DNA of 64,000 nt from a virus: IMG/VR virus record IMGVR_UViG_3300017991_000062, positions 49,078 to 113,077 of that record; one strand, given 5' to 3'. The notes below the pieces were generated by a model. That model was given only the letters and a program-made list of their open reading frames with translations, did no database searches and was not told the origin of the DNA. Made by a program: the position numbers and the translations under genes. This document shows positions 19,376 to 61,500 of this stretch, piece after piece. Numbering within the stretch: the first letter of the stretch is position 1; each line of letters begins with the position of its first letter.

Positions 19376-21490
19376 ATGGCGGTCAAGTCCACCCGGCGCA
19401 TGGTCGCCAGCACGGCCGGCCACTTCGAGACGCTCGCCCGCACCCTCACCCGGGACACGGGTATGCAGGTCATCCCCACGGCCGGCGAGTGCTGCACCGA
19501 CTGCAAGACGTTCATCAAGGTGCCCATCCTGGCCGAGCACCTGCCGAAGCGGGCCAGCGAGATCCTCGACGGGATGCTGGACCACGAGAGCGGTCACGGC
19601 CGGTGCTGCAAGCTGGACGAGGAACTGGGCCGGGTGCCCCTGCACCGGCTCTGGGAGGTGTACGGCAAGCCCTCGGACAAGGTCCACGGCGCCATGAACG
19701 CGGTTATCGACGCCCGGGACGAGGAGAAGATGGAGCGGCTCTACCCGGGCACCGCGGAGAACTTCCAGCGGAGCTTCGAGTTCTGCGCTGGCCGGCGCCG
19801 CGAGCTGGACCCGGTGGCGGCCTCCGATCCGAAGCGGCTTCTGTTCGACGTGCTCTGCGTCGTCAATGCCCGGCTGCGCCGCAAGGACGGCTCTGCCTGG
19901 GGCTCGATGGCGAACCAGGTGGTCGACGAGGTGCTGGAGGAGGAGGTCGAGGACGGACGGGAGCTGGTGGACGACTTCGCCGAGCCGGCTGCGTTCCTGG
20001 ACCTCGCTCGCCGCATCCTGGAGAAGCTGGAGGCTGCCACGGAGGAGCCCGAGCCCGGCGAGGGCGACGGCGAGGGTGGTGAGGGCGACGGCGAGAACGA
20101 GGAGGGCGAGGGCAGCGGCGGCAAGGGTGACGAGGAAGGCGACGACGAGGGCGGCGGGAGCAGCGGCAGCTCGGGCGATGGCGACAAGGACGCAGGATCG
20201 TCGCCAGGCGATGAGAACGAAGACGAGGGCGATGGCAGTGAGGACGACTCCTCGAACGGCTCGGACAGCGAGGATGGCGCTCCCACATCGCCCGAGTCGG
20301 GTGATGGCGGCTCCGCGGATAGCAGTGGCGCGGACGACGACCCCGAGCCGGGCAAGGCCGGCGACAGCCCCGACAGCCCCGACGAGAGTGACGGCAAGGC
20401 CGAGCAGTGCGAGGCCGGGCTGCCCGAGGGCACCCGCGAGGAGCTGGAGAAGACGCTCGACTCGAAGCTCGGTGACGACCCCGACCCCGTGAAGGAGTTC
20501 GAGCGCGAGGAGCTGGAGCGCGAGGCGAAGCGCGTCAAGCCGAAGATGGATGGCATCCACATCCCCGACCCCAAGGCGAAGGCCGCGGACAGGGTGCTCG
20601 ACGCCCAGACCCAGGGCAGCCCCGAGGTCGGGTTCAGGACGTACAACGAGGCACGCAACCGGGCTCGCCGGGAGATCGGTGCGCTGCGGGCCAAGCTCTA
20701 CCGGGCGCTCTGCTCCAAGCGGGCGAAGCGGCTGCGCGTGGAGCAGGAGGACGGCCCGCGGCTGCACGAGGCCAGCCTGCACAAGCTCGTCAGCAGCCGG
20801 CACGACACGCGGGTTTTCCGCAAGACGCTCCCCGGCATCGAGGTCGAGACCGCGGTCAGCATCCTGGTGGACCAGAGCGGGTCGATGAGCGGCTCGGGCA
20901 AGATCGGCAAGGCCAGGATCGCGACGACGGCACTGGCCGAGACGCTCAACAGCCTGGGCATCCCGTTCGAGGTGCTCGGCTGGTGGACGAACGACCTGGG
21001 GCGCCCGAAGGTGACAGGCGAGGAGCGTGACTGGCACACCCGCTTCAATCGCTGCTATCCTCAAGTCTACTACGTCTACAAGGCGTTCAACGAGCCCTTC
21101 GGCAAGGTGCAGAAGTCGCGCATCGGCGTGATGGACGCGCACAACCAGAATTGCGATTCGGAGGCCGTGGCCTGGGCCGCTGACCGGCTGGCCACGCGCC
21201 GCGAGCGCCGCAAGATCCTCATCGTGATGTCGGATGGCCAGCCCTGCTCGCCGGGCACCGACAGCGCGGTGGACGGCGGCAACATCCGCAAGGTCGTGAA
21301 CCGCTGCTTCGACATGGGGCTGGAGGTCATCGGCCTGGGCATCCTGACCGATGCGCCGGCCTACTACTACCCCGTCAGCGTGGTGCTGCACGACATCAGC
21401 GACCTCGCGACGAAGCTGGTGAAGATCCTGGAGGCGCTGCTCCACAAGGGTAAGCGCCTCGCCAAGGTCGGGACCGGGAAGGTGGTGTGA
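19376..21490 (+). CDS. CobT-like VWA-domain protein
   Basis: 704 residues from ATG one base after the CobS-like stop. The N-terminal domain contains HESGH (residues 70-74), an HExxH zinc-protease-like motif, and several Cys. About 220-390 is a very acidic Glu/Asp/Gly/Ser stretch. The C-terminal VWA domain has the MIDAS motif DQSGSMSGS (near 500) and IVMSDGQP (near 617). This layout (helical N-part, acidic hinge, VWA) is that of CobT. It should partner the CobS-like ATPase. Whether the HExxH site is catalytic is not shown by sequence. Confidence 0.8.
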   Translation: MAVKSTRRMVASTAGHFETLARTLTRDTGMQVIPTAGECCTDCKTFIKVPILAEHLPKRASEILDGMLDHESGHGRCCKLDEELGRVPLHRLWEVYGKPSDKVHGAMNAVIDARDEEKMERLYPGTAENFQRSFEFCAGRRRELDPVAASDPKRLLFDVLCVVNARLRRKDGSAWGSMANQVVDEVLEEEVEDGRELVDDFAEPAAFLDLARRILEKLEAATEEPEPGEGDGEGGEGDGENEEGEGSGGKGDEEGDDEGGGSSGSSGDGDKDAGSSPGDENEDEGDGSEDDSSNGSDSEDGAPTSPESGDGGSADSSGADDDPEPGKAGDSPDSPDESDGKAEQCEAGLPEGTREELEKTLDSKLGDDPDPVKEFEREELEREAKRVKPKMDGIHIPDPKAKAADRVLDAQTQGSPEVGFRTYNEARNRARREIGALRAKLYRALCSKRAKRLRVEQEDGPRLHEASLHKLVSSRHDTRVFRKTLPGIEVETAVSILVDQSGSMSGSGKIGKARIATTALAETLNSLGIPFEVLGWWTNDLGRPKVTGEERDWHTRFNRCYPQVYYVYKAFNEPFGKVQKSRIGVMDAHNQNCDSEAVAWAADRLATRRERRKILIVMSDGQPCSPGTDSAVDGGNIRKVVNRCFDMGLEVIGLGILTDAPAYYYPVSVVLHDISDLATKLVKILEALLHKGKRLAKVGTGKVV

Positions 21491-21586: not shown

Positions 21587-22171
21587 ATGGCACCGTCACT
21601 CGCAGAGATGAGGGACCGCTTCAGCAAGGGCGCTGCCGAGCAGCGTGCGCAGGAGGAGGCCGAGCGCAGGGCACGCGAGGCGGCCGAGGCCAAGCGGAAG
21701 CGCGAGGAGCAGGAGAAGAAGGACCGCGAGCGCAAGGCCGCGGCCGAGGCCGAGGCGAAGCGGCAGCGGGCCAAGCGCGCGGCCGAGGAAGCCCGGCGGG
21801 CCAAGCTCCACGAGGACATGATGAAGGAGGCCGCCAGGCCCGGGAGAGGCCGAGCCGACCTGCGTGACGACGAGTATGAGGTCGAGTTCGACCACCTGGA
21901 GTATCGCCGCCGCGGCTCGCGGAAGTTCTGGATGGGCGCGGTCATCAACGACGGCGCCCGGGGCATCTACGGCTTTGTTCGTCGGTGGGGCCGTATCGGC
22001 ACCACCGGTCAGGGCAAGTGGGTTGACTTCGTGACGGCCGGCCATGCCATCGAGAACGCCGGGAAGGTGATGGACGAGAAGCTCGGCAAGGGCTACAGCC
22101 GGGTCGGGACGGTGCGCTGCGCGGTGCGGCTGGACCCGAGCGGTGCGATTTCATGGCGCCCGCTGCGGTAG
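21587..22171 (+). CDS. WGR-domain protein with coiled coil and shared N-terminal tag
   Basis: 194 residues; ATG 21587 has GGGAGGG at ideal distance (an ATG 6 bp earlier does not). It begins MAPSLAEMRDRFSKG, one of seven copies of the tag found in this phage. Residues ~15-90 are a Lys/Glu/Arg/Ala coiled coil. The C-terminal half has RKFWMGAVIN, YGFVRRWGRIGTTGQ and FVTAGHAIENAGKVMDEKLGKGY, a recognisable WGR domain. WGR domains in PARPs and MolR-like proteins bind DNA ends or nucleic acid. A DNA-binding role is therefore likely. Confidence 0.72.
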   Translation: MAPSLAEMRDRFSKGAAEQRAQEEAERRAREAAEAKRKREEQEKKDRERKAAAEAEAKRQRAKRAAEEARRAKLHEDMMKEAARPGRGRADLRDDEYEVEFDHLEYRRRGSRKFWMGAVINDGARGIYGFVRRWGRIGTTGQGKWVDFVTAGHAIENAGKVMDEKLGKGYSRVGTVRCAVRLDPSGAISWRPLR

Positions 22172-23461: not shown

Positions 23462-24613
23462 ATGGCGAAGAAGGACCCGAAGGACAAAGTCGCGGAGATC
23501 GAGGCGCCGAACTGCCTCGGGTTCCATGACGAGGACCCCACCTGCGACGGCGACCCGGAGGCGGCCGACGCCGAGATGCGCAAGGGGTGCCCGACGCGGG
23601 ATACGTGCATCCGGCTCCAGCAGTACGCGGCCGGCACCGACGAGGATGCCGATGCGCTGCTCAAGGATGCCGGGCTCACCGGGGCGAAGGTGGGCAAGGT
23701 GGACGAGTGGCTGGAGGCCCAGGCCGAGGCCGAGGAGGAGCCCGAGGCCGAGGAGGAGCCCGAGGCCGAGGAGGAGCCCGAGGCCGAGGAGGAGCCCGAG
23801 GCCGAGCCCGAGGAGGAGCCCGAGGAGCCCGAGGCCGAGGAGGAGCCCGAGGAGCCCGAGGCCGAGGAGGAGCCCCCCAAGCCGAAGGCCAAGCCCAAGT
23901 CGAAGTCCAAGTCGAAGTCCAAGAAGAAGAGCGCCTCGAAGAAGGCGGCCAAGCCCGAGGCCAAGCCCAAGGGCAAGGGCAAGCCCAAGGGCAACGGCGG
24001 TGCCCAGGTGCCCGAGGGCGCGCCCGAGTGCTACGCCGACGAGGAGGTGCTCGATCCCAAGAGCGACCAGTGCAAGGCGTGCCCCGTGGCGAAGAAGTGC
24101 CGGACCCGGGTGTACAACGTCCGCGCCGACCGCAAGCGCAAGGAGGCGGCCGGCGACGAGTCCGAGCCGGCCAAGGCCAAGCCCAAGCCGAAGGCCAAGC
24201 CCAAGCCGAAGGCCGAGTCCAAGCCCGAGCCGAAGCCGGCACCCGCGGCCAAGCCCAAGGCGAAGCCCGCGGCCGAGCAGAAGCCGGCACCGACCAAGCC
24301 CAAGCCCAAGGCGCGCAAGGTGAAGGACCCCATCACCGCCATCGCCAAGAGCAAGGGCTGGCCGCTCACCGTCTACTCCGACCACTACGAGGTCAGCCGG
24401 GTCGTCGGCTCCCAGGTGCGCCCGTTCATGCGGGTGTTCACCACCGAGCCCCTCATCCGGGTCAGCGGTCTGCGCGCGAGCCCCGACGTCCTGGCCGGCC
24501 TGGGCGCCGAGGAGAGCGTGGCCCAGGGCTTCGACCACGACCTGTCGCTCACCAGCAAGACGGCGATGGCTCGGTTCCTCAAGGCGCTCGACGCCGAGCC
24601 GAACATCATCTAG
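23462..24613 (+). CDS. Low-complexity acidic/basic protein with two Cys clusters
   Basis: 383 residues. Residues ~18-49 hold one Cys group (C-L-G-F ... C-x5-C). Residues ~85-140 are (E/A/P)-rich 6-residue repeats. About 140-180 and 235-290 are Lys/Pro/Ala-rich. Between them is C-x13-C-x2-C-x5-C, the same zinc module seen in the proteins at 29465 and 45240. The last ~90 residues are folded-looking (GWPLTVYSDHYEVSRVVG). Alternating acidic and basic tails suggest nucleic-acid or protein scaffolding. Function unknown. Confidence 0.72.
   Translation: MAKKDPKDKVAEIEAPNCLGFHDEDPTCDGDPEAADAEMRKGCPTRDTCIRLQQYAAGTDEDADALLKDAGLTGAKVGKVDEWLEAQAEAEEEPEAEEEPEAEEEPEAEEEPEAEPEEEPEEPEAEEEPEEPEAEEEPPKPKAKPKSKSKSKSKKKSASKKAAKPEAKPKGKGKPKGNGGAQVPEGAPECYADEEVLDPKSDQCKACPVAKKCRTRVYNVRADRKRKEAAGDESEPAKAKPKPKAKPKPKAESKPEPKPAPAAKPKAKPAAEQKPAPTKPKPKARKVKDPITAIAKSKGWPLTVYSDHYEVSRVVGSQVRPFMRVFTTEPLIRVSGLRASPDVLAGLGAEESVAQGFDHDLSLTSKTAMARFLKALDAEPNII
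23719..23874 (+). repeat. Coding tandem repeat (Glu-Ala/Glu-Pro)
   Basis: Units built from GAGGAGCCCGAGGCC repeat with period 15-18 bp and encode EEPEAE-type hexapeptides. It is a coding repeat prone to copy-number change, not a CRISPR array. Confidence 0.8.
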
Positions 24614-24620
24614 CGACCCC

Positions 24621-25172
24621 GTGAAGCTCACCGACCTCCGCAAGCGCTACAGCAAGGGCAAGCGCCCGAAGCGCACCCCGGCAGGCTCCAAGCCGAGAGC
24701 GACGGGCCTGCCGGGGCAGAAGGCGTGCCGGAACTGCGACGGGACCGGGAAGGTGCTGGTGGACGGTGGCCCGAGCGGGAGGCCACCGAGGGAAGTCACC
24801 TGCTCGCGTTGCGACGGCACCGGCATCGCGGTCGACCCCGACACGAAGGGTCCGCGCAAGCGGCACGTCGCTATCGAGGAAGAACACCCCGGCCTCGCAG
24901 GTGGTGAGCGCGATGGCACCACAAAGAAAAAGCTCGACCTGAAGAAGATAGCGGAACGCCGGGCCAAGGTGGGGCGTGCGAAGTACACCTTGGTCACCGA
25001 CGTCGCTGGCCGCGAGGATGCGATCCTGCTCTTCGGTAAGCACAAGGGCAGCAAGGTGTCAGCGCTCGCTGCTAGTAGAGAGACGCGGGGATACCTGATG
25101 TGGATGCTCGACGAGGGCTTTGACGATGAGCTGAAGCGGGCGGTGCTCGTTCAGCTCGGGATGGATTCGTGA
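24621..25172 (+). CDS. DnaJ-like zinc finger plus DUF3820-like domain, tagged N-terminus
   Basis: 183 residues from GTG. It begins MKLTDLRKRYSKGKRPKR, a clear copy of the recurring tag. Residues ~36-70 contain CRNCDGTGK and CSRCDGTGI, a DnaJ-type zinc site. The C-terminus (ILLFGKHKGSKVSALAASR...GYLMWMLDEGF) matches the FGKHKG...YLxW motif seen in DUF3820 and at the C-terminus of some exonucleases (ExoX). It lies directly upstream of the DNA polymerase with a TGATG junction. Confidence 0.7.
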   Translation: MKLTDLRKRYSKGKRPKRTPAGSKPRATGLPGQKACRNCDGTGKVLVDGGPSGRPPREVTCSRCDGTGIAVDPDTKGPRKRHVAIEEEHPGLAGGERDGTTKKKLDLKKIAERRAKVGRAKYTLVTDVAGREDAILLFGKHKGSKVSALAASRETRGYLMWMLDEGFDDELKRAVLVQLGMDS

Positions 25173-28100
25173 TGGCGCGCGACCCCTGGGCCAACCTCCA
25201 CGTCCACAGCATGTTCAGCCTCCTGGACGGTGTGGGCTCATATGCCGACTACGCGAAGCGACTCAAGGCCGACCTGGAACGGCGTGACGACGACTCGCCA
25301 GGCGCGCTCGCAGCGACCGAGCACGGTAGCATGAGGGGCATCGTCCAGCTCCAGAAGGCGGCCGACGAGCACGAGCTGAAGCCGGTGTTTGGTGTCGAGC
25401 TGTACGTGTCGGCTGACCACCGGGTCAAGGCCCTCTCCGAGGAGGACAAGGCCCTGGTGAAGGAGCAGCCGGCAAAGGAGCGGCGCTCGTTCCAGGTGGC
25501 CCTGGAAACCTACCGCGGCATCCGGCCGCGCTGGCACCTGACCGCCTGGGCGCTGAACAACGTCGGCCTGCGCAACCTCATCAGGCTGTCGAGCGCGGCC
25601 TGGGTCGACGGGTTCTACTACAAGCCACGGGTCGACTTGAAGTTGCTGGAGCAGTACTCGGAAGGCGTGGCCGTGGGCACCGCCTGCCTCGGCGGCATCC
25701 TCGCAGAGCCGCTGCTCAAGGACGAGCCCGCGCTGGCCGTCGAACACGCCCACTGGCTCCGCGACGTGTTCGGTGACCGCGCCTATGTTGAGCTGATGCC
25801 GAATGGCCTCGCGGATCAGAAGCGGGTGAACCGCGGGCTTCTGAAGCTGGCGCGCTCGGTGGGGCTCACGCCCATCGCCACGGTCGACACCCACTATACG
25901 AAGCCGAAGGACTGGAGGCTTCAAGACACGCTGCTCGCGGTGCAGACCAACGACCGCATGAGCAATCCCCACCGCTGGACCATCCCGGCCCGCGACTTCT
26001 GGTACATGACCGCGGCCGAGGTGCGCAAGCTGTTCCGGCGGAACCACCCGTCGCTGAAGCACAGCACCATCGACAGCCTCATCCGCAACGCTGCCGAGCT
26101 GGCCGGCCGGTGCGAGGCGCGTCTGGAGTTCGACCGCTTCGCTGCCCTCCTGCCGAGCCCCACCGGACGGGACACCACTCCCGAGGAGGACTTCAACGAG
26201 CTGAAGAAGCTGTGCGTCGAGGGCTGGCACTGGCGCGACATCCACACCCGAGCGGCCTGGGTCGCCGGCCGCGACGGACGCAAGACCGAGCGAGTGGTGA
26301 CGCAGTATCGCGAGCGGCTGAAGCGCGAGCTGCGGGTGTTCCGCGACATGAAGTTCTCCCGCTATGCCTTGGTCGTTCGCGACCAAGTGGACTGGGCCAG
26401 AGGCGAGGGCATCCTGGTCGGCCCAGGCCGCGGCAGTGCAGGCGGCAGCCTGGTCGTCTACCTGCTCGGTATCACCAGCATCGATCCCATCGAGCACGAC
26501 CTGCTCTTCGAGCGTTTCATCGCGCCTGGCAGAATCGATCTCCCAGACATCGACATCGACTTCGAGAAGGAACGCCGGCAGGAGGTCATCGCGTACATGG
26601 TCGAGAAGTACGGCCGCGAGCAGACCGCACAGCTCACCACCTACAGCTCGATGAAGGGACGCGGCTGCTTCCGCGACGTGGCGCGGGTGCACGAGGTGCC
26701 ACCGCGCGAGCTGAACGCGACGGCCAGTGCCATCCTCCAACGGCTGCCCGGCCACGAGCGCGAGGACAAGTGCATCGCTGACTCGCTGGCCACCTCGCCC
26801 CAGTGCAAGGCGTTCGCGAAGAAGCGGCCTGTCGTGTTCAGCGTGGCCGAGCGCCTGGAGGGCACCATCCGGCAGGTCGGGCTCCACGCGGGCGGTGTCG
26901 TGGTGGCGCCGATGCCCCTGGACGAGGTGGTGCCCCTGGAGAGCCGTGCTGACAAGGACGGCGGTGGACGGGTGCCGGTCATCGCGCTCGACTACCGTGA
27001 CGCCCAGGAGTGCGGCCTGGTGAAGTTGGACGACCTCGGACTCACGAACCTGACGGTGGTGCGCTACGCCCTGGAGGCTATCGCGGAGCACCACGACGCC
27101 GAGCTGACGCTGGCCGACCTGGAGGCGAGTCACTACGACGACCGCGACGTCCTGGACGCATTCAACGAGCCGTCCAACCTCACCGGCATCTTCCAGTTCG
27201 ACTCGACCAGCATGGTCGGCATCATGCAATTCAAGGTCGAGCGCTTCGAGGACCTGATGGTGCTCAACGCGCTGAACCGGCCCGGCCCGATGCGCAGCGG
27301 CCTGGCGAACATCTACGCGGCGAGGGCCACCGGCAAGAAGAAGCGGAAGAAGGAGCACCCTATCGTCGAGCGGATCACGGCGTCCACCCTGGGCGCCCTG
27401 GTGTACCAGGAGCAGGTCGCGCGGCTGTTCGTGGACCTCGCCGGCTACAGCGCGGGCGATGCGGACAAGATTCGGAAGAAGATCGGCAAGAGCGAGGGTG
27501 AGAAGGCCATCGCCCCCGAGGAGGCCAAGTTCATCGACGGCGCTGTGCGCAACGGCATGAGGGCCGAGGTCGCTGCGAAGCTGTTCAAGCGAGTGTTGAA
27601 GTTCGGCGGCTACGGCTTCAACCGCTCCCACGCTGCCGAGTACTCCGCGCTCGGGTATTGGGAGATGCTGCTCAAGGTGCGCTACCCCGGCCCGTTCTAC
27701 CTGGGCGTCTTGCAGGCGGCCAAGGATGACGCCGACAGAGCCCGCTACATCGAGGCGGCCCACCGCGACGGGGTGGAGGTGCTGACGCCCGACGTGAATG
27801 AGAGCCGGCGCGCCTACGCCCTGTCGGTGTCAGGCTCCATCCGGCCACCGTTGGAGGGCATCAAGGGTGTCGGTCCGAAGGCGAGCCTCGCTCTGCTGGA
27901 GGGGCAGCCCTACACGTCCTTCACCGACCTGGTGAGCCGTACCGACTCCCGGCAGGTGCACCGCGGCATCGTGACCGCCCTCGCCGAGGCTGGCGCTCTG
28001 GACACCATCATCCCGAACCGGCGCTTCGCGGTGGAGAACGCCGAGGAGTTGATGAAGCGGGCTCGCAAGGGCGATGCTGCCGTGGACTTGGACATCGAGG

Positions 28101-28888
28101 TGAGCAAGACGGCGACCGATTGGGACGAGCGCGAGCGCGCCAGGCGTTCTATCGAGTTGGGAGTGTTCGGGCCAGGAGCTAGCATCCTCGACGCCTATGC
28201 CGACCTCTGGGAGGCCATCGAGTCGGCAGGTGTGGAGCTGACCACCCTGGGCGGCATCCAGTGGAACGAGTCCCTGGGCTGGTTCAAGGTGGTGGCACGC
28301 GAGTCGAAGGTCATCACGACCGACGACGGCCGGGTCGCCTCGCTGGTGCTCACGGATGGCACCGGCCCTGACCTGCGCGCTCGGATGGAGAGCAACGAGC
28401 TGGACCGCTACGAGAAGGCGGTGAGCCGTGCCTCCGGGAAGGCCGTGCTGGTGCGGGCCAGCTTCAACGCGAAGACGAAGCAACTGCGAGCCCTGAAGGT
28501 GTACGACGCGGCGGCGCTCCACAAGGCATGGAGAACGGACGAGTTGTCCGACGATGAGGCGCAGGTGTTCGTGAACCCGCTGGCCGCGGTGAAACCGCGG
28601 CATGACCTGCGCAAGTCGCTCGCTGGCGAGCCCTCGCTGCTCAAGTTCGTTGGCCGCGTCGAGGCGATGAAGCTGTGGAAGGATCGCAAGAAGAACACGA
28701 TGGCGTTCTTCGATGTGCAGGCGTACCGCGGCAGCGTGCCGGCGGTGTGCTTCGCGTCGTCGTTCCGTCACTACCGTTCGGACCTGTATGTCGGGGCCGT
28801 GGTGCGGATCGAGTTGATACGAACCGAGGGCGGCGGGTGGGCGCTCGACCATGAGAGCGGCTGCGAGCTGGAGAACATCGGGGAATGA
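25172..28888 (+). CDS. dnaE: DNA polymerase III alpha subunit (DnaE-like, family C)
   Basis: 1238 residues; ATG 25172 overlaps the previous stop. The PHP domain starts at NLHVHSMFSLLDG, with ATEHGSM and TVDTHYT carrying metal-binding residues that look intact. The palm has GPGRGSAGGSLV and PDIDIDFEKERR, the catalytic Asp motif. The fingers have QEQVARLFVDLAGYS and GGYGFNRSHAAEYSALGYW. A C-terminal helix-hairpin region (EGIKGVGPKASLALL) and OB-fold end the protein. Family role: replicative DNA synthesis. No separate 3'-5' exonuclease is seen, so proofreading may reside in PHP. Confidence 0.93.
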   Translation: MARDPWANLHVHSMFSLLDGVGSYADYAKRLKADLERRDDDSPGALAATEHGSMRGIVQLQKAADEHELKPVFGVELYVSADHRVKALSEEDKALVKEQPAKERRSFQVALETYRGIRPRWHLTAWALNNVGLRNLIRLSSAAWVDGFYYKPRVDLKLLEQYSEGVAVGTACLGGILAEPLLKDEPALAVEHAHWLRDVFGDRAYVELMPNGLADQKRVNRGLLKLARSVGLTPIATVDTHYTKPKDWRLQDTLLAVQTNDRMSNPHRWTIPARDFWYMTAAEVRKLFRRNHPSLKHSTIDSLIRNAAELAGRCEARLEFDRFAALLPSPTGRDTTPEEDFNELKKLCVEGWHWRDIHTRAAWVAGRDGRKTERVVTQYRERLKRELRVFRDMKFSRYALVVRDQVDWARGEGILVGPGRGSAGGSLVVYLLGITSIDPIEHDLLFERFIAPGRIDLPDIDIDFEKERRQEVIAYMVEKYGREQTAQLTTYSSMKGRGCFRDVARVHEVPPRELNATASAILQRLPGHEREDKCIADSLATSPQCKAFAKKRPVVFSVAERLEGTIRQVGLHAGGVVVAPMPLDEVVPLESRADKDGGGRVPVIALDYRDAQECGLVKLDDLGLTNLTVVRYALEAIAEHHDAELTLADLEASHYDDRDVLDAFNEPSNLTGIFQFDSTSMVGIMQFKVERFEDLMVLNALNRPGPMRSGLANIYAARATGKKKRKKEHPIVERITASTLGALVYQEQVARLFVDLAGYSAGDADKIRKKIGKSEGEKAIAPEEAKFIDGAVRNGMRAEVAAKLFKRVLKFGGYGFNRSHAAEYSALGYWEMLLKVRYPGPFYLGVLQAAKDDADRARYIEAAHRDGVEVLTPDVNESRRAYALSVSGSIRPPLEGIKGVGPKASLALLEGQPYTSFTDLVSRTDSRQVHRGIVTALAEAGALDTIIPNRRFAVENAEELMKRARKGDAAVDLDIEVSKTATDWDERERARRSIELGVFGPGASILDAYADLWEAIESAGVELTTLGGIQWNESLGWFKVVARESKVITTDDGRVASLVLTDGTGPDLRARMESNELDRYEKAVSRASGKAVLVRASFNAKTKQLRALKVYDAAALHKAWRTDELSDDEAQVFVNPLAAVKPRHDLRKSLAGEPSLLKFVGRVEAMKLWKDRKKNTMAFFDVQAYRGSVPAVCFASSFRHYRSDLYVGAVVRIELIRTEGGGWALDHESGCELENIGE

Positions 28889-29464: not shown

Positions 29465-30646
29465 ATGCCGAAGACGAAGAAGAAGGTGGATCTGGACCGT
29501 CTGCGCCAGTACAAGCGCGACCGGGCCACGGGGAAGTTCCTGAACATCCCCGAGGGCGACTCGCTCGTGTACCTGGCACCCCCGGCCCGCGACGACTGGG
29601 ACCTGCCGTTCCTGGAGACGGCGGTTCACTACGGGCTCGGCGGGACCATCATGTGTCTCAACCCCGACAAGAACCCACTCCTCCAGGACGAGGAGTTCCT
29701 GCGCCTGTGCAAGAAGCTGAAGATCGACGTCAGCGGCCCGTGCCCGGTGTGCCAGGTGCTCCAGGGCAAGCCGGGGCAGCCCGGCCTCTGGGACACCGAC
29801 AAGGACGCGGCCCGCAAGATCAAGGTCAGCCCGCGCTTCCTGCTCGCCGCGGCCATCATGTACACCCGCAAGGACTCGACCGACGCCTGGTCGGCGCGCG
29901 AGAGCTTCGACCTCAAGCCCTTCTCCATCGGGAAGAAGGTGTGGGAGGCCATCGTCGACCAGTTCCTCGACCAGGACGCCGACCTCACCGACCCGCTGGA
30001 GGCGGTGCTGGTCATGATCCATCGCGAGGGCACCGGCATCAGCTCCCAGTACAACGTGAAGATCGACCCCAAGAGCAGCAAGAAGCCGCTCCGCATGTCC
30101 AAGGCGGCCCGCGCCGACCTGCGCGACATGCTCGCCTCGGGTGCCGAGTGCGACCCCTACACCCTGGCCCTCGACTGGGTGAAGCCGGCCGACGGGATGA
30201 GCGCGCTGCTCGACGGGCTCGACGTGGACGAGGACGAGGAGGAGGACGAGGAGGAGCCTCCGCGTGGCCGTGGCCGCTCCACCCGCCGCACCCGCCGCGA
30301 GGAGGACGAGGACGAGGACGAGGAGGACGAGGACGAGCCCGAGGACGACGACGCGGGCGAGCGCCCCTCCTGCTTCGGCCTGGACTACGAGGCCGACGAC
30401 GAGGACTGCCAGGAGTGCGGCCACAAGGGGCCGTGCGCCAAGAAGTCGGGCGCCGAGGAGCCCGAGGACGACGAGGCCGAGGAGGAGCCCGAGGACGACG
30501 GCGAGGAGGAGGACGACGAGGACCTCGCCGACCTGGAGGCCGCGCTGGACGAGAAGGCCGGCAAGAAGAAGGGCAAGGGCAAGCCCAAGAAGAAGGGCGC
30601 CAAGGGCAAGGGCGGCAAGGGCCGCACCCGGCGCCGGCCGTCGTAG
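29465..30646 (+). CDS. Single-stranded DNA-binding protein-like, gp32-type with acidic tail
   Basis: 393 residues from ATG with AAGGAGG upstream. The N-terminal half (~1-245) is an ordered domain with aromatic and basic residues (SLVYLAPPARDDWDLPFLETAVHY) and a CPVC pair. The C-terminal ~150 residues are dominated by Asp/Glu runs, with an Arg/Lys end. A zinc module C-x11-C-x2-C-x5-C lies near 302-323. An OB-like core plus acidic tail beside recombinase genes fits a gp32-type SSB. The core could instead belong to another recombination protein. Confidence 0.6.
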   Translation: MPKTKKKVDLDRLRQYKRDRATGKFLNIPEGDSLVYLAPPARDDWDLPFLETAVHYGLGGTIMCLNPDKNPLLQDEEFLRLCKKLKIDVSGPCPVCQVLQGKPGQPGLWDTDKDAARKIKVSPRFLLAAAIMYTRKDSTDAWSARESFDLKPFSIGKKVWEAIVDQFLDQDADLTDPLEAVLVMIHREGTGISSQYNVKIDPKSSKKPLRMSKAARADLRDMLASGAECDPYTLALDWVKPADGMSALLDGLDVDEDEEEDEEEPPRGRGRSTRRTRREEDEDEDEEDEDEPEDDDAGERPSCFGLDYEADDEDCQECGHKGPCAKKSGAEEPEDDEAEEEPEDDGEEEDDEDLADLEAALDEKAGKKKGKGKPKKKGAKGKGGKGRTRRRPS

Positions 30647-38543: not shown

Positions 38544-39938
38544 GTGAAGCGCAGCCGGCCACAACTTCAGCGCGGGACGTGCCTGTTCGACCTGCACACT
38601 TGGGCCGGCGGCAAGCCTCCCCTCTCGGTGCAGTACTTCGTCAACCGGCATTCGCTGCCTGTGGTGACCGACCCTTCCGACCTGGGCGAGTTCCGAACCG
38701 TGCTGTTCTCCCTGCACACTGCCCGCGACGCGCTCAAGGTGGCGCGGCTCGCTCACCACAAGGCCCCGGGTCAGGAGTGGATTGCCGGCGGCGGCGCCGC
38801 GGTGAACCCGACGCCCGTGTCGTGGCTGATGGACTATGTGCTCGTCGGTGATGGCTTCGAGGCGTTCCCGCTCCTGCTCCAGGGTGAGCGTGAGCTAGAG
38901 GGCCTGTTCGATTGCCAAGCCCGCGACCCGGTGCGCTACCGGGACGAGGGGATCTTCCCCGAGCCGTATGCTCCGCGCAACCTGCTCCTGACCGTGGGCT
39001 GCCGGCATCGGTGCGCGTTCTGCATCAGCCCTTGGAGGCGTCAGTACCGCGAGCAGAGCCCGGCCGTGGTGCAGCGCTTCATCGCTGACGCGCCTTGCTC
39101 GCAGCTCGGGCTCACCACGACCAGCGCGGTCGACGTGTCCTACCACGCCGACCTCCTGGAGTGGCTTCGCGAGCACGGCCGCATCAACAACTCGATGAGC
39201 AACACGGTTCGCGGCGTCTCTGAGGGCGCCCTCACCGGCTGGAAGGGCAACATCCTCTTCGGCCTGGAGGGCATGCGCGAGGAGGTGCGCGGCTTCGTCA
39301 ACAAGCCCATCCCGGAGTCGCTGGCCCTGGAGAAGGTGTTGCTCGCGCTGCGGCACGGGTGGAAGGTGCGGCTCACCTATCAGTTCAACCTCCCGGGCGA
39401 CCGCCCCTCCGGCGTGGAGAACGTGCGCAGCCTGGTCGAGAAGGTACGCCGCGAGCTGCGCAAGGGCCAGCTCGAAGTCTCGTTTATCCCGCATCAGCCG
39501 TCGCCATTCACTCCGATGCAGTGGGAGCGGCCACGGTGGGACGAGGAGACGCGACGGGCGATCCTGGACATGCGCAAGTCCTACTTCGGCAGCGGTAAGA
39601 CCGGCGTGAGCGTGTTCGTGCCGACGCCGCTCGGCGCCCCGAGGTGGGTGACCCAGATCGTGTCCGAGCGCATCCCGGTGACGCCCGGCGTGGTGAAGGC
39701 GATGGATGCCATCCCGGCCACGGCCAGCTTCGAGAAAGCGGTGGACGTGCTGGAGTCCCACGGTGTCGATGCTGCGCGCTGGTTCAGGCGCCAGAGCACG
39801 AACGAGGCGCTCCCCTGGGAGTATGTCGAGGTCCATACCAGTCGCGAGCGTCTGCTCGCGGAGTTCAACAAATTGCGGCGCCGTGTCCAGCGGCGTGAAC
39901 GTCAACGGCCAACTGCGGGGGAATCCGATGCCGCGTAG
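38544..39938 (+). CDS. Radical SAM enzyme of unknown substrate
   Basis: 464 residues from GTG with GGGAGGG upstream. The Fe-S motif is C-x3-C-x2-C in GCRHRCAFCISPW (near 152-160). The upstream ~140 residues (TCLFDLHTWAGGKPPLSV, LVGDGFEAFPLLL) resemble the B12-binding-like N-domain of MiaB/elongator-type or cobalamin-linked radical SAM proteins. The chain overlaps the next gene by 11 bp. Pairing with a PP-loop-methyltransferase fusion suggests joint modification of nucleic acid; this is inference. Confidence 0.72.
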   Translation: MKRSRPQLQRGTCLFDLHTWAGGKPPLSVQYFVNRHSLPVVTDPSDLGEFRTVLFSLHTARDALKVARLAHHKAPGQEWIAGGGAAVNPTPVSWLMDYVLVGDGFEAFPLLLQGERELEGLFDCQARDPVRYRDEGIFPEPYAPRNLLLTVGCRHRCAFCISPWRRQYREQSPAVVQRFIADAPCSQLGLTTTSAVDVSYHADLLEWLREHGRINNSMSNTVRGVSEGALTGWKGNILFGLEGMREEVRGFVNKPIPESLALEKVLLALRHGWKVRLTYQFNLPGDRPSGVENVRSLVEKVRRELRKGQLEVSFIPHQPSPFTPMQWERPRWDEETRRAILDMRKSYFGSGKTGVSVFVPTPLGAPRWVTQIVSERIPVTPGVVKAMDAIPATASFEKAVDVLESHGVDAARWFRRQSTNEALPWEYVEVHTSRERLLAEFNKLRRRVQRRERQRPTAGESDAA

Positions 39939-44171: not shown

Positions 44172-45250
44172 TGCTGGTGCGCCTGCCGTGGGAGTGGGAA
44201 GTCGCCATCTGCTGCGCCCTCAACCTCGCCGAGATGTGGTCGCTCCGACCGGAGCAGCGGCCATCGAGCCAGGAGATTTCGGACGACGAGGGGCTCGGCA
44301 GGACGCCCCACTACCTGTCGCGCTCGATCCTGCCCAACCTGGTCAAGGCCGGGGTGCTCACTCACCAGCGGAAGCAGCCGATGGGCTACCGGCTCGCTCG
44401 TACCCCGTCGCGCATCACGCTCTATGACATCGTCGCCGGGGTGTTCAACTACCGTGGCGAGGGCGTCGTCAACCACCTGTCCAAGCGCCTGCCGAGGGCA
44501 GAGATCCGACGCTACCGCTCTTCGCGCGGCCTGCGCTGCCCCGGGGAGTATGCCTTCGGCGGCCTGGACGAGTTCGTGACTGCCTACCTGAAGCGGATTA
44601 CGCTGTCGAAGATGCTCGCGGCCAACCTGGGCCTGACGGCGAAGGTGCTGTATCGGGACGCCTATGCGAAGTCCCGCTACCCCGTGTCGCTGCTCGACAG
44701 GGTGCGCCCGGTGCTCTTGGAGTTCTGTCCGCTGGTCGAGAATTGGAGAGGCTCCATCATCGCCTGGGCGCACAGCCCGGTCGCTGACCCGCTGCTCAAC
44801 GGGTTCGAGATGTGGATGCGCGCTCTTCACAAGCGCTACCTGACCGCACCGCGCCGTATCGGGTCGCAGCAACTCTACGAGCTGCGCCTGGAGGTGCAGA
44901 GCTTCGCAGGGCGAACCGAGCCTGGCGCCACCTTCGGGAAGTACCGGATCTGGGAACGCAACCTCGCGACTCACCACTGCCACGACCGGGCCGGCTACAT
45001 CGCCGCGGTCCAGGTGCAGCCGTGGCGAGGCTACGAGTCCTTCCAGGTGTTCTGCACCGACAGGGAGCGGCTACTCGACTTCGCTGCGTCGGTGCGCTTC
45101 AAGGACACGGACGGCATCACCGAGGATGGCCCAGGCGCGCCGCTGCCACCGGCTGACGTGGGCCAGCTCACCGCGGATGGATGCTGGAGCTACATCGACC
45201 GGCGCAGGGACGCGAACGACATCTACCGGGGGCTGGCAGGTGAAGGCTGA
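44171..45250 (+). CDS. Rrf2-like winged helix fused to unknown domain
   Basis: 359 residues, TGATG start. Residues ~10-85 follow the Rrf2 pattern: ISDDEGLGRTPHYLSRSILP, NLVKAGVLTHQRKQPMGYRLA and SRITLYDIVAGVF. The Cys residues that bind Fe-S in IscR are not present there. The remaining ~270 residues (KRLPRAEIRRYRSSRGL, SIIAWAHSPVADPLLNGFEMWMR) are unrecognised. It may be a transcription regulator of the phage or of host genes. Confidence 0.62.
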   Translation: MLVRLPWEWEVAICCALNLAEMWSLRPEQRPSSQEISDDEGLGRTPHYLSRSILPNLVKAGVLTHQRKQPMGYRLARTPSRITLYDIVAGVFNYRGEGVVNHLSKRLPRAEIRRYRSSRGLRCPGEYAFGGLDEFVTAYLKRITLSKMLAANLGLTAKVLYRDAYAKSRYPVSLLDRVRPVLLEFCPLVENWRGSIIAWAHSPVADPLLNGFEMWMRALHKRYLTAPRRIGSQQLYELRLEVQSFAGRTEPGATFGKYRIWERNLATHHCHDRAGYIAAVQVQPWRGYESFQVFCTDRERLLDFAASVRFKDTDGITEDGPGAPLPPADVGQLTADGCWSYIDRRRDANDIYRGLAGEG

Positions 45251-46328
45251 CGAGCTACGACGGCGCTTCGCCAAGCGGCCCTCCTGCTTCGGCCAGTACG
45301 AGGAGCACCGGGAGGGGGACGGTTGCCTCGTGTGCGCATCGTTTGGCGAGTGCCTGGAGGAGAGTGCTGGTGAAGCCGAGGAGCCCGATCCCGAGATAGT
45401 CGAAGCGCAGTGCGGTCACTGCCGCCACTTCCAACTCGAAATCGATGGCGGCCCTGTCGGGCACTGCACCGGCCACGGCAAGGCCGTCTTCTCGGCGGAT
45501 ACCCCGTGCCCCACGTTCCACCCTGCGGATGTCCCTCCTATGCTGCGGGCCGATGCCCGGTGCAAGGACTGCGCGCACCTACAGTTCGACGGGCATGCTC
45601 TCCTCAAGTTCTGTGAGCTGCGGTCGATGGACCGCCACGGCGACGACAGAGCGTGCGACCGCTTCAACCCGCGCGAGCCGAAGCATGCTGCCGGTCAGAC
45701 CCCGATCAACCTGCCGGGGTGTTTCGCCACCTACAACCCGGGGCGCACGGACGGCAAGGACTGCACCGACTGTGAGTTCAGTCGGCAGTGCGAGGGCGTG
45801 CGCCGCAGAGCTTTCGAGCACCCGCCACCGAAGCGGGTTATCAAGTTCGACCGTGGCGAGTTGGACGACGAGGCCATCGAGCGTGTCAGGGAGTTTGTCG
45901 AGCAGCAGAGGCGGGGGATGTCCGATGCGCTTGTGGTCCCGAAGGGGATGCTAGCAGAACCGATCCCGCCTGTCAGCGCGCCAGAGCCAGAGCCCGACAA
46001 AGAGCCGCGCGAAGAGACGGCCATGTTCAAGTCGCGGGCTGGCGACGAGAGCTACGTCGTGCCGGCTATCGCGCTCACTAGCCGTGCCCAGGGCACAGCC
46101 CACAAGATAGCGAGCTACGCTTGCGGCGACTACCCTGACCCGGCCGTGCTTCAGCTCGCGAACTACGCGATCCGGTGCCTCGCTGCCACGTCCGACAGCG
46201 TAGATGCCGCGGCACAGCGGCTCGATGTGGTGGTGCAGCGGCAAGTTCCCGCCACGACATCGCAGCCGCACCGGCAGCGGCAGGTCGTGTCGATCCTGGC
46301 CAGCGTTATCAAGACCAGAGCCCTGTGA
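45240..46328 (+). CDS. Multi-zinc-site protein with shared N-terminal tag (362 aa)
   Basis: GTG 45240 overlaps the previous gene by 11 bp. It starts MKADELRRRFAKRPSCFG, a variant of the recurring tag. Four Cys groups follow: C16-x12-C-x2-C-x5-C, a CGHC/HC/C group, a CKDC/FC/C group, and a second C-x13-C-x2-C-x5-C near 161-184. The middle is charged; the C-terminal ~90 residues (ALTSRAQGTAHKIASYACGDY) are helical. The two outer modules match those in proteins 23462 and 29465. Function unknown. Confidence 0.65.
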   Translation: MKADELRRRFAKRPSCFGQYEEHREGDGCLVCASFGECLEESAGEAEEPDPEIVEAQCGHCRHFQLEIDGGPVGHCTGHGKAVFSADTPCPTFHPADVPPMLRADARCKDCAHLQFDGHALLKFCELRSMDRHGDDRACDRFNPREPKHAAGQTPINLPGCFATYNPGRTDGKDCTDCEFSRQCEGVRRRAFEHPPPKRVIKFDRGELDDEAIERVREFVEQQRRGMSDALVVPKGMLAEPIPPVSAPEPEPDKEPREETAMFKSRAGDESYVVPAIALTSRAQGTAHKIASYACGDYPDPAVLQLANYAIRCLAATSDSVDAAAQRLDVVVQRQVPATTSQPHRQRQVVSILASVIKTRAL

Positions 46329-49367: not shown

Positions 49368-49840
49368 GTGCAACGCACGGGCCGGAAGCTCCCCCGGTCA
49401 TCGCGCTGTGGTGGCGACCAGGCGCGCTGTACCTGCCCAGGGGAGCCGAACAGACCATCGGGAGCATCAACATCGCGGCCCAGGCCGCGGTCGCGGAGGC
49501 GCTCGAACTGGGCGGCGAGGCGGGGTGGGCGAAGATGTGCACCAACCTCGCCTCGCTCGCCAGGCTGCGGCGCAGCCTGATGAAGGAGGACGGGATGCCG
49601 AACGGGACGCTGTCGCTGCGCGAGTTGCTTGAGGGTGCCTCGGGCGCCATGTTCGACACGGTGGTTCGCGAGACGGCGGCCGACACCGGCCTCAACGAGG
49701 ACCTGGTGCGCCGCTCCTTCGACCCACCTGCGTCGTCCGACCCGCCCGAGCTGACCGCGGCCCGGGAGCGCGTCGTGCTGTACTTCAGCCACGGCAGCCG
49801 CGGGGAGGCTCGGACTGCGATGCGGGGCGAGTCTGACTGA
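49364..49840 (+). CDS. Hypothetical protein (158 aa)
   Basis: ATG with GGGAGAG upstream, ATGA overlap. Mixed composition, no Cys cluster or membrane helix; MCTNLASLARLRRSLMKED and TLSLRELLEGASGAMFDTVV are helical. Overlaps the next ATG by one base. Not recognised. Confidence 0.6.
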   Translation: MSATHGPEAPPVIALWWRPGALYLPRGAEQTIGSINIAAQAAVAEALELGGEAGWAKMCTNLASLARLRRSLMKEDGMPNGTLSLRELLEGASGAMFDTVVRETAADTGLNEDLVRRSFDPPASSDPPELTAARERVVLYFSHGSRGEARTAMRGESD

Positions 49841-50394
49841 TGCCTACCCTGGACGAGCTGCGGAGTCTGTTCAGCAAGGCCAGGGATGCCGAGCGGCTTG
49901 CAGCTCTGGACGATGGTGAGTCGCTCGTCAGTGCCGAGTTCACCGCGGCGTTCGCCGTTGCCGATACCGACAAGACGGTCTTGATGCGCCTGGTGCTACT
50001 TACCGAGCGCGTTCTTGAGAAGCTGCCCCGCGACCGTGCTGCGGACCCAGAAGAGGAGATGATCGCAGTGAAGTTGGCGGCCCGCGAGAAGCTGCGCGAG
50101 CTGACCGGCGTCGGCTACCCGGCGAGCGGCCTGGTCCCGGAGCAGGTCACGAACCTGCCCGACTTCGATGGGCCGCCCCAGATCCGGGTCGAGCTGCGGG
50201 TGCCTCGTGTGCTCGCCGACCAGGTGAAGGCCATCCTCGGCCGCAAGGAGCGCGACGAGGGTATCCACTTCAACGACGAGCCGAGCTACACCTGTCCACA
50301 CTGCGGGAAGACGTCACACCACCCGGTCGACGTCGAGCGCAAGTTCTGCGGCGCCTGTGGCCGCTTTGAAGAAGCACTGGAGGGGATCGAATGA
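49840..50394 (+). CDS. Zinc-ribbon protein with shared N-terminal tag (184 aa)
   Basis: TGATG start. Begins MPTLDELRSLFSKARDAERL, a looser copy of the tag. The C-terminus has CPHCGKTSHH and CGACGRFEE, a Cys4 zinc ribbon. The middle (IRVELRVPRVLADQVKAILGRKER) is alpha/beta. Function unknown; a nucleic-acid role is likely from the ribbon. Confidence 0.62.
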   Translation: MPTLDELRSLFSKARDAERLAALDDGESLVSAEFTAAFAVADTDKTVLMRLVLLTERVLEKLPRDRAADPEEEMIAVKLAAREKLRELTGVGYPASGLVPEQVTNLPDFDGPPQIRVELRVPRVLADQVKAILGRKERDEGIHFNDEPSYTCPHCGKTSHHPVDVERKFCGACGRFEEALEGIE

Positions 50395-58727: not shown

Positions 58728-59741
58728 GTGGACCTCAACGAATTCCGACACCGCTACCGCAAGGGGCGCCCCAGGCCGAAGCCGAAGAAGAAGCCCAGGC
58801 CGCACCTCAACGGGTCGGCGCAGGGTCGCATCTTCACCCTGGCCGAGGAGGCGTGCGTCCAGGCCGCGGCGAGCCTCGCCCACGTCGGGACGGCGCTCAT
58901 CGACAACCGGGAGACCGACCAGTGGCGCATCCGCTTCAGGGTGCCGATGGGCACTGAGCTGACCGCGGCGAACGAGGAGGCCGCCCGGCTCATGGGTGAC
59001 GCCCCGAACGGCGCCCCGGAGACCCTGGGCGAGCTGGCGGCCGGGCTCGCCCTCGCCCGGTCGCACGACGACGGGTACGTCCCGACCGCCGCGGACCACG
59101 CGACCAGCCGCATCCAGAACCCGGAGTACAACTCGTCTCGCAACGCCCTCGTCTTCCGGGTGCACGGGCCTCGCCGCTTCATCGCCAGCATGTCGGAGCC
59201 AAACGACCCCATCCGCGGCAAGGACGCCGAACGAGGCGTGAGGCTCCCGCACTCCGTCCTCCCGGCCGGTCGCTTCCCCAAGGGCGCCCACCGGGCCGAC
59301 AGGCGCATCCCGGAGATCGAGGCCACGACCAGGCTCGCAGCCGCGGCGAACATCGGCACGCTCCGGGGCATCAACGGCTTCGGCGGCGAGTGGGACCACC
59401 TGCGCTTCATCACGGTCAGCGTGCTCAAGAGCCGGTGGGAGCAGGCCCTCGGCGCCCTGGAACTCAAGGAACTCCGCGAAAACCCTCGGGCCAAGGACGC
59501 CGCCGCCAGGCGCAAAAAGAGGCCTCGAAAGCTGGCCTGCGCCATCACGGCCAAGCTCTTCGACGAGGCCGGCACCCTGGGCAGCACCTACGAGATCCCG
59601 CCCGGTGGCGCTGCGCCCCTGGCCTACACCGTTCCGACCGAGCACCTGCCCGGCTACATCACCTTCAAGGTTTACGGCCCGAAGGCGATGCTGTCGAAGC
59701 TGACTGCCCTGCGCCGGCTGCCACACCACCGGCCGAGCTGA
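58728..59741 (+). CDS. Tagged protein 1 of the 58.7-61.5 kb cassette (337 aa)
   Basis: GTG 58728 is chosen for its GGAGGG site; an ATG at 58713 lacks one. It begins MDLNEFRHRYRKGRPRPKPK, then RPHLNGSAQG. The rest is a large alpha/beta protein with no motif I know (VMGDAPNGAPETLGELAAGL is not present; instead MGDAPNGAPETLGELAAGLA and FGGEWDHLRFITVSVLK). The final stretch GYITFKVYGPKAMLSKLTAL resembles the end of tagged protein 3. Next gene overlaps by one base. Confidence 0.65.
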   Translation: MDLNEFRHRYRKGRPRPKPKKKPRPHLNGSAQGRIFTLAEEACVQAAASLAHVGTALIDNRETDQWRIRFRVPMGTELTAANEEAARLMGDAPNGAPETLGELAAGLALARSHDDGYVPTAADHATSRIQNPEYNSSRNALVFRVHGPRRFIASMSEPNDPIRGKDAERGVRLPHSVLPAGRFPKGAHRADRRIPEIEATTRLAAAANIGTLRGINGFGGEWDHLRFITVSVLKSRWEQALGALELKELRENPRAKDAAARRKKRPRKLACAITAKLFDEAGTLGSTYEIPPGGAAPLAYTVPTEHLPGYITFKVYGPKAMLSKLTALRRLPHHRPS

Positions 59742-60649
59742 TGAAGCTGCGCGACCTGCGACGGCTGTTCAGGCGCGGCCGGTGGAAGCCGGCCGAGCCC
59801 GAGCCAAAGAAGGCGGCAGTCGTCACCAAAGAGGACGCGAAGAGGCTCGCGCATGCGTTCGAGCTGGCCAAGGCCATCCGTGCGGAGAACCCACACCACC
59901 CGTCACGCGGCATCCCGAAGGCCCTCCCGCTCGCGAGGGGCATCGAGGAGCTATCGCGGCGCCTGGGCGTCACCCTGGACACGGCCGCGACCGCGCTCGA
60001 CACGGAGATCCGCGCAGCTCTCGACGCTGTTCCAGGGGCGCGCCTGCCGAAGCTGGAGGTGCTGGTCACGGTCGCGGCGACCAGGACGCTGACCGAGGCC
60101 GGTGTGAAGATGCCTCCGACGCCGACGAAGGTCATGCGCAAGGAGTTCATCATCATCGACGACATCCCAGGCCCAGGCGGGGTCAAGTTCAGAGACCCCG
60201 ACGCGCTGCCGCCACACCCGGCCATCGAGAGCGGGCCTATTGAAGACCCGGAGGAGCGTGAGCGGGAGGTGCGGGCGGCCCTGAAGCGCTGGCACGAGCG
60301 CGAGCTGACCGACAAGGGCGTCGAGCGATTCAGCGTCCACCTCCCGGCCAGCGCTGTCGAGGAGGCGACCAGCCGGCTCGCGTCAAAGGTCGGTTGGCCG
60401 CCTCCACCGCCGAAGCCAGACGACATCGAGATCCGGCCGATGACCAGAGAGGAGATCGAGGAGGTCGCCAGGCTTTACGACATCGACCGGCCACCCGTGA
60501 AGCCGGTGAAGCTGAAGAAGGCCAGGACGAGCGAGGAGCTGATGCGTGATATCGAGGCCGGCATTGCGGGCATCCCTGACGAGGTGGTGGACCGCGTCAT
60601 GGCCAGGGCTATTTTCGGAGACGACAACCCAGAGGGTGACGACGAATGA
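59741..60649 (+). CDS. Tagged protein 2 of the cassette (302 aa)
   Basis: TGATG start. Begins MKLRDLRRLFRRGRWKPAEP. The body is charged and helical (FELAKAIRAENPHHPSRGIP, LSRRLGVTLDTAATALDTEI), with Pro-rich linkers (WPPPPPKPDD) and an acidic end. It has no enzyme motif I recognise. It overlaps the next gene by 4 bp, so all three tagged genes are translationally coupled. Confidence 0.65.
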   Translation: MKLRDLRRLFRRGRWKPAEPEPKKAAVVTKEDAKRLAHAFELAKAIRAENPHHPSRGIPKALPLARGIEELSRRLGVTLDTAATALDTEIRAALDAVPGARLPKLEVLVTVAATRTLTEAGVKMPPTPTKVMRKEFIIIDDIPGPGGVKFRDPDALPPHPAIESGPIEDPEEREREVRAALKRWHERELTDKGVERFSVHLPASAVEEATSRLASKVGWPPPPPKPDDIEIRPMTREEIEEVARLYDIDRPPVKPVKLKKARTSEELMRDIEAGIAGIPDEVVDRVMARAIFGDDNPEGDDE

Positions 60650-61500
60650 AGCTCAACGAGCTGCGCCACCGCTACCGCAAGGGCAGGCCCAAGCGTCGGC
60701 CACGGCCAAGCCCCCGGGCCTGGATAGCAGAAGAGGCGAAGAAGGGCCGCCCTCTGAACGTGGCCGAGGCCACCCGGGCAGCAGAGCAGCTCTCGGCAGC
60801 GTTCGGCATCACCAAGGACCACGCCTCCGGTATACTGGCGCGGGTGGTGAACGGTCTGGAGCGAGACAAAGGCGGGAAGGAGTATGTGACGGCGGCCGAG
60901 CTGGAAGCGACAACCGAGGGGTTGATACTCACGAGCAGCCCGAGGCCCGACAGCCGCCGCGGCAGGCGCAAGGCAGACCTGGAGACCCTGAAGCGGGCCA
61001 GGGCAGACAGACGGGAGAGCAGGAAGACCAGACGCACCAGAGCCACGTTCCCAGGGCTGCGCCACCCGAGCAAGGCCGCGGAGGAGCTACTGCTAGCAGC
61101 GGACGGCCGCTGGACCAGGAGCAGCACCGACGCAGCGACCGCGGTGCTGACGCTGGACCTGTGGCCCAGGAAAGCGATGCTGGAAAGCCTGCGCGAGCTG
61201 AACAGGAAGTATCGACCAAGGCCACTGGGCAGGATAGTGTCGAGGACCGTGGAGGACACGATAGCCACGCTGGCGATACGGCACCTGGTCAAGCTGGCCG
61301 GGCTACGACTCGCAGCCCCGACGACGATGACCAGGGTAGCCGGCATCCGAGCAGAGGAACACCCGAGACACCCGGAGCGAGGACACATCCAGCTCACCTA
61401 TACGGGGAGCCCGAAGCAGGTAGCTGAAGCAGCGCACGCGCTGAAGGTGCTACAGGGAAGAAAGGCTCTAGATGACCTCACGAGCACACCCGCAGAGTAG
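60646..61500 (+). CDS. Tagged protein 3 of the cassette (284 aa)
   Basis: ATGA overlap. Begins MKLNELRHRYRKGRPKRRPR, nearly the same as tagged protein 1. Central region is Arg/Ala-rich and helical (AEQLSAAFGITKDHASGILA). The C-terminus HIQLTYTGSPKQVAEAAHAL is like that of tagged protein 1. Late codons shift to more AGG/AGA/ATA than in the neighbouring genes, which may reflect recent arrival. It ends at the iteron-bearing non-coding block. Confidence 0.65.
   Translation: MKLNELRHRYRKGRPKRRPRPSPRAWIAEEAKKGRPLNVAEATRAAEQLSAAFGITKDHASGILARVVNGLERDKGGKEYVTAAELEATTEGLILTSSPRPDSRRGRRKADLETLKRARADRRESRKTRRTRATFPGLRHPSKAAEELLLAADGRWTRSSTDAATAVLTLDLWPRKAMLESLRELNRKYRPRPLGRIVSRTVEDTIATLAIRHLVKLAGLRLAAPTTMTRVAGIRAEEHPRHPERGHIQLTYTGSPKQVAEAAHALKVLQGRKALDDLTSTPAE

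Follow-up and report, generated by a model that had tools for sequence, protein, structure and literature searches.

The internal proteins of T-even phages are highly diverse and conserved only in an N-terminal capsid-targeting sequence, or CTS (PMC3012670), and in phage P1 the N-terminal 30 residues of DarB suffice for packaging (PMC9024508). In the giant phage SPN3US, two strongly diverged paralogs with prohead-protease motifs, gp53 and gp54, have an identical 15-residue N-terminus (PMC5694885). In T4, a terminal region of the SSB gp32 recruits replication and repair proteins (PMC11551737).

The phage described here has a 12-residue N-terminal motif, which we will henceforth refer to as the tag (consensus [KTS]-L-x-[ED]-L-R-x-R-[FY]-x-K-G), on eight proteins. 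As with the T4 CTS (carried by IPI-IPIII and Alt; PMC3012670, PMC5694885), a short conserved N-terminal sequence is thus found on several different, fast-evolving phage proteins. However, the two sequences do not match (the tag lacks the MKTYQEFI-like CTS consensus), the tag is not followed by a conserved cleavage site, it is also found on conserved proteins of the replication module, and packaging is here a proposal. The likeness to DarB lies in the use of 30 or fewer N-terminal residues as a possible address, but whereas the Dar N-termini have no consensus according to the P1 authors (PMC9024508), that of the tag is strong. By contrast with the paralogous SPN3US pair, the tag precedes several clearly different protein bodies. 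Finally, among the genes of the phage is one for a gp32-like SSB whose tail is acidic; this SSB may likewise gather proteins, although its binding to the tag is our proposal.

We analysed a window of 64,000 bases (positions 49078-113077 of a 113,077-base IMG/VR phage record, G000), as well as the remainder of that record and two further metagenomic records (G001 and G029), with genes called by a home-made caller. The initial annotation of the window had listed seven proteins, starting between 21587 and 60646, with a common pattern at residues 2-15; all seven are present at these starts and have the motif in this range. Its literal pattern describes six of them and fails for the protein at 45240, which has A for L and R at the last position, though it scores with the others. 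The eighth tag lies outside the window, at record position 314 (VKLDELRKRYARG). In window coordinates, the seven proteins are as follows:

21587..22171, + strand: tag SLAEMRDRFSKG (21596-21631), charged coil and WGR domain (Pfam WGR, 4.7e-14)
24621..25172, + strand: tag KLTDLRKRYSKG (24624-24659), basic linker, DnaJ-type zinc finger and ExoX-like C-terminal domain
45240..46328, + strand: variant tag KADELRRRFAKR (45243-45278) and two four-cysteine modules of the SSB kind
49840..50394, + strand: tag TLDELRSLFSKA (49846-49881) and a C-terminal zinc-ribbon-like CxxC pair
58728..59741, + strand: tag DLNEFRHRYRKG (58731-58766), basic Pro-rich linker and orphan body
59741..60649, + strand: tag KLRDLRRLFRRG (59744-59779) and orphan body
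60646..61500, + strand: tag KLNELRHRYRKG (60649-60684), basic linker and orphan body

The protein at 24621 had been read as a DnaJ finger plus DUF3820; the finger is there, but in place of DUF3820 Pfam gives an ExoX-like domain (E 2e-5 for the G001 ortholog). The zinc-ribbon-like end of the 49840 protein falls below the Pfam cut-off. None of the orphan bodies (58728, 59741, 60646, record position 314 and the G001 protein at 38547) matched a family, the 58728 protein had no homolog in IMG/VR and the 60646 protein none in INPHARED, while PADLOC detected nothing in the tagged proteins.

Equal frequency of the pattern at internal positions or by chance, which the initial annotation had named as evidence against a signal, was not what we found. 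Specifically, a strict regular expression applied to all six frames of the 113,077-base record returned seven matches (missing the 45240 variant), all of them N-terminal and none internal, and every copy of the tag begins 1-3 residues past the start codon. Scored by a position matrix, all eight tags lay between 25.7 and 34.3; no other 12-mer in the six frames of the record exceeded 15.3, and 20 million random 12-mers of matching composition all stayed below 20. In a leave-one-out analysis of the 12 tags of G000 and G001, in which each tag was dropped from the training along with its ortholog or near-duplicate, 11 beat every other 12-mer of the two genomes; the exception was 58728 (with its near-duplicate 60646 also dropped), which was outscored by one DnaE peptide.

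A search for the tag over the full record and related phages found eight tags in G000, four in G001 (107,406 bases, largely collinear with G000; MCP 80%, DnaE 68%) and four in G029 (107,749 bases; MCP 73%, DnaB 70%), the latter phage having been found by a search with the phage SSB. The tags of the two relatives, by record and position, are:

G001, 8592: ortholog of the WGR protein
G001, 11506: ortholog of the DnaJ/ExoX protein
G001, 33885: positional ortholog of the 49840 protein (MPTLDDLRERFKQH), with a diverged body
G001, 38547: accessory protein, absent from the matrix training set
G029, 72552: ortholog of the WGR protein
G029, 75718: ortholog of the DnaJ/ExoX protein
G029, 96181: counterpart of the 45240 protein, with tag and four-cysteine modules
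G029, 98949: small protein of 84 residues

Five tags, the fourth of G001 and the four of G029, came up with matrices whose training had not included them; in G029, a matrix trained on G000 and G001 only gave the four tags 20.4-23.8 and the next best peptide 13.8. Each of the three phages bears the tag on its WGR and DnaJ/ExoX proteins and, beyond these, on a set of accessory proteins that differs from phage to phage; the 45240 protein has no match in G001. Across 2.02 Mb of other phage loci we found no matrix match of at least 19, and narrow DNA patterns, written for two tag variants, matched in IMG/VR only records of these phages. Weak matches to the DnaJ/ExoX protein in Lak megaphages and other records turned out to be untagged proteins of the DnaJ or UvrA type, and a Rhizobium phage WGR protein likewise lacks the tag. 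A capsid-protein search of bacterial genomes for the host gave no match. A separate 11.6 kb record (L004, IMGVR_UViG_3300018080_004171), in which the DnaJ/ExoX protein and DnaE are 99-100% identical to those of the window, is by its sequence the same or a near-identical phage.

Across the 16 tags of the three phages, conservation is strongest at positions 5 (hydrophobic), 6 (R) and 9 (F or Y), each invariant in kind (16/16), followed by an acid at position 4 (15/16), L at 2 and R at 8 (14/16 each, with L replacing the latter), K or R at 11 (13/16) and G at 12 (9/16). In helical geometry, positions 2, 5 and 9 share one face, and low-confidence models (mean pLDDT 47.6 and 35.6), too poor for structural comparison, predict a helix at residues 3-11 of the 24621 protein and 8-15 of the 58728 protein; we infer that the tag is a helix. 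A Lys/Arg/Pro-rich linker follows it in many of the proteins, though not all. Comparison of the tag profile with the PDB gave chance-level matches only, and we found no account of the tag in the open-access literature, our coverage of which was incomplete.

We then considered whether the motif is conserved as peptide or as nucleic acid. Among same-amino-acid pairs in the 16 tags, the codon was identical in 51% of cases against 53% expected from codon usage, i.e., there was no additional synonymous-site conservation of the kind looked for as a trace of 5' gene conversion or a DNA element. Since the codon match is no higher than codon usage predicts, selection acts on the peptide, and the motif is not explained by a DNA/RNA element or by recent copying. 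Similarity between N-termini also emerges de novo when all N-termini of one phage are compared pairwise, with residues 31-52 as control: in G000, 17 N-terminal pairs scored at least 35 versus one internal pair, and the same test on T4 segments returned as its top pair the CTS of IPII/IPIII. Ten more distant relatives yielded nothing comparable (few pairs, near the internal counts), their strongest N-terminal pairs coming mostly from neighbouring gene copies. In G001, the genes at 51813 and 53211 both begin with E[SR]KNRKREKKM ahead of a second Met; this common start is perhaps an upstream leader or translation-start region and not protein.

The reading of the tag as a peptide that targets or docks different bodies is well supported: the tag is strictly N-terminal, selected as a peptide, kept on orthologs in three phages and, in each phage, borne by different accessory proteins as well. 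This much of the sorting signal proposed in the initial annotation stands, whereas the capsid as its target becomes one rival reading, in which packaging is conjectural. As for where the tag may lead, the following genes of the window accompany the tagged ones:

18124-19374, + strand: CobS-like AAA+ protein (Pfam), upstream of the WGR gene
19376-21490, + strand: CobT-like VWA protein (Pfam), upstream of the WGR gene
23462..24613, + strand: untagged neighbour of the DnaJ/ExoX gene, with the same four-cysteine module as the SSB
25172..28888, + strand: DnaE-type DNA polymerase (tblastn), its start overlapping the stop of the DnaJ/ExoX gene
29465..30646, + strand: gp32-like SSB with a long acidic tail and one four-cysteine module, untagged (phrog_1192, 7.5e-9)

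CobS/CobT, DnaE and the SSB belong to a replication module which also includes DnaB, primase, SbcCD and RecA. The CobS-like protein also bears a ROS/MUCR-type zinc finger. The WGR and DnaJ/ExoX genes lie inside this module in all three phages, the former immediately after cobT and the latter, in G000, overlapping dnaE, which tilts the balance towards a replication partner. The terminase, portal, protease, capsid and tail genes are common to tag-free phages (G004, G008, G009, G011 and G012; MCP about 50%) at about 20-50% identity, whereas nearly all replication genes are unmatched there, RecA and a few others having distant matches. G000, G001 and G029 have head as well as replication genes in common, and a head partner is still conceivable because the gene at the scaffold position is likewise limited to these three. 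A four-cysteine module (C[FYL]..C..C..C), for which we found no Pfam family, recurs in all three phages on the SSB and on other proteins, some tagged and some not: in G000 on the 23462-24613 protein, the SSB (29465-30646), the tagged 45240-46328 protein and the product of a gene that closely follows the capsid gene (L002:8616-9173), and in G029 also on the WGR protein. All three phages found with this SSB have tags, in a small sample from a pattern-limited search. The N-terminal arm of the SSB (LDRLRQYKR) looks tag-like by eye and was rejected as a tag, being outside the top N-terminal matrix scores.

On this genomic evidence, a partner in replication or genome processing fits somewhat better than capsid targeting. 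We favour it because the tag tracks the replication module and not the common head block, and because tagged proteins have the four-cysteine module in common with the phage SSB; the SSB query that led to the third tagged phage is in line with this, while the occurrence of the module next to the capsid gene counts against it. Our preferred reading, to which we give not quite an even chance, is that the tag is a lineage-specific amphipathic-helix docking motif whose most likely partner is the phage replication/genome-processing complex, the SSB being the first candidate. The tag would stand free at the N-terminus as an amphipathic helix with hydrophobic residues 2, 5 and 9, a conserved acidic residue 4, Arg 6 and Arg 8; Gly 12 would usually end it, and a flexible basic linker would often follow. 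Through this helix, a single lineage-specific partner at that complex, perhaps the gp32-like SSB, would gather a changing set of accessory proteins. We know of no common N-terminal tag on the partners of T4 gp32. Both docking and its replication site are what we infer from sequence and gene context. Put more generally, and a shade more tentatively, this may be a phage address code, in which one N-terminal helix, read by the replication hub, has been fixed onto newly acquired proteins for the replication/repair complex.

Should the tag instead be a capsid-targeting sequence, as in T4 IPI-IPIII or P1 DarB, the tagged proteins would be packaged and injected with the DNA. These two systems are the closest functional precedents (PMC3012670, PMC9024508), the tag is similar to the CTS in position and length, the orphan tagged genes vary between phages like T4 internal proteins, and several tagged proteins are basic (net +13 to +27), though three are not. 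LxE, which resembles the T4 protease site, often lies within the tag, but it is LxD or otherwise broken in several copies, and no (L/I)xE prohead-protease site is conserved after it; the phage protease is of the XkdF type. The tag matrix gives the T4 ipI, ipII and ipIII proteins negative scores, from -2.7 to -5.4. Distance from the head genes is no argument against packaging, since the T4 ip genes adjoin denV and the lysozyme gene; the sharing of terminase, portal, protease and capsid genes with tag-free phages is one, as is the position of the two most conserved tagged genes in the replication module. We regard virion targeting as unlikely, though a serious contender. A further reading, which we consider rather improbable, makes the tag an adaptor for another partner, i.e., the CobS/CobT-like AAA+/VWA pair, a host protein or RNA polymerase. 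The place of the WGR gene right after cobT in all three phages speaks for CobS/CobT, as does the conserved acid, which could suit contact with the metal site (MIDAS) of a VWA domain; against the adaptor reading, a narrow DNA pattern written for tags of the MPTL form matched none of 84,980 bacterial and archaeal genomes.

It is very unlikely that common descent alone accounts for the tag, the orphans being diverged paralogs or bearers of a duplicated 5' end in which the N-terminus is best kept and has no separate docking role. The tagged proteins had been called otherwise unrelated, and judged by sequence the WGR, DnaJ/ExoX, cysteine-module and zinc-ribbon bodies certainly are; among the orphan bodies (58728-61500 and record position 314) distant kinship is possible, and the tags and linkers of 58728 and 60646 are near-identical. 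None of 45 pairwise HMM comparisons of tagged bodies was clearly significant, in a weak test: even the 49840 protein and its positional ortholog gave p=0.04 only, similar to some orphan pairs. A beta-strand/Pro/helix motif that the bodies seemed on inspection to share did not survive leave-one-out, in which its five source proteins ranked 14-43 of 271, and the codons bear no sign of recent copying. We give least credence of all to a membrane-binding helix or an N-terminal degron. The tag is amphipathic and often basic, and about half of the tags tested for the lipid-binding discriminant (D 0.57-2.31) reached 1.5-2.3, but two had only 0.57, mean hydrophobicity is near zero, and a generic membrane helix would need neither the acid at position 4 nor the invariant Arg at 6.

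If the tag is an address, sequence alone would reveal which unknown phage proteins work at one place, and it would offer a genetic handle on the targeting system (e.g., tag-reporter fusions or pull-down with the tag peptide). A CTS-like tag could allow proteins to be loaded into new phage heads, while, if the tag leads to a replication hub, accessory proteins would be recruited in a manner not yet described. All-against-all comparison of the N-termini of one genome with internal controls, which recovers the T4 CTS, is applicable to all phages.

Two further groups of genes were noticed in G000. A B12-binding radical-SAM-like protein (window 38544-39938; TIGR03960, 1.8e-11) has no match in G001 or G029. 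Elsewhere (L001:3649-5142 and L002:1769-3320), QueC fused to a glutamine-amidotransferase domain is encoded along with QueD, QueE and FolE, a 7-deazaguanine pathway that suggests modified DNA; we found no relatives of these genes in G001, while G029 has them.
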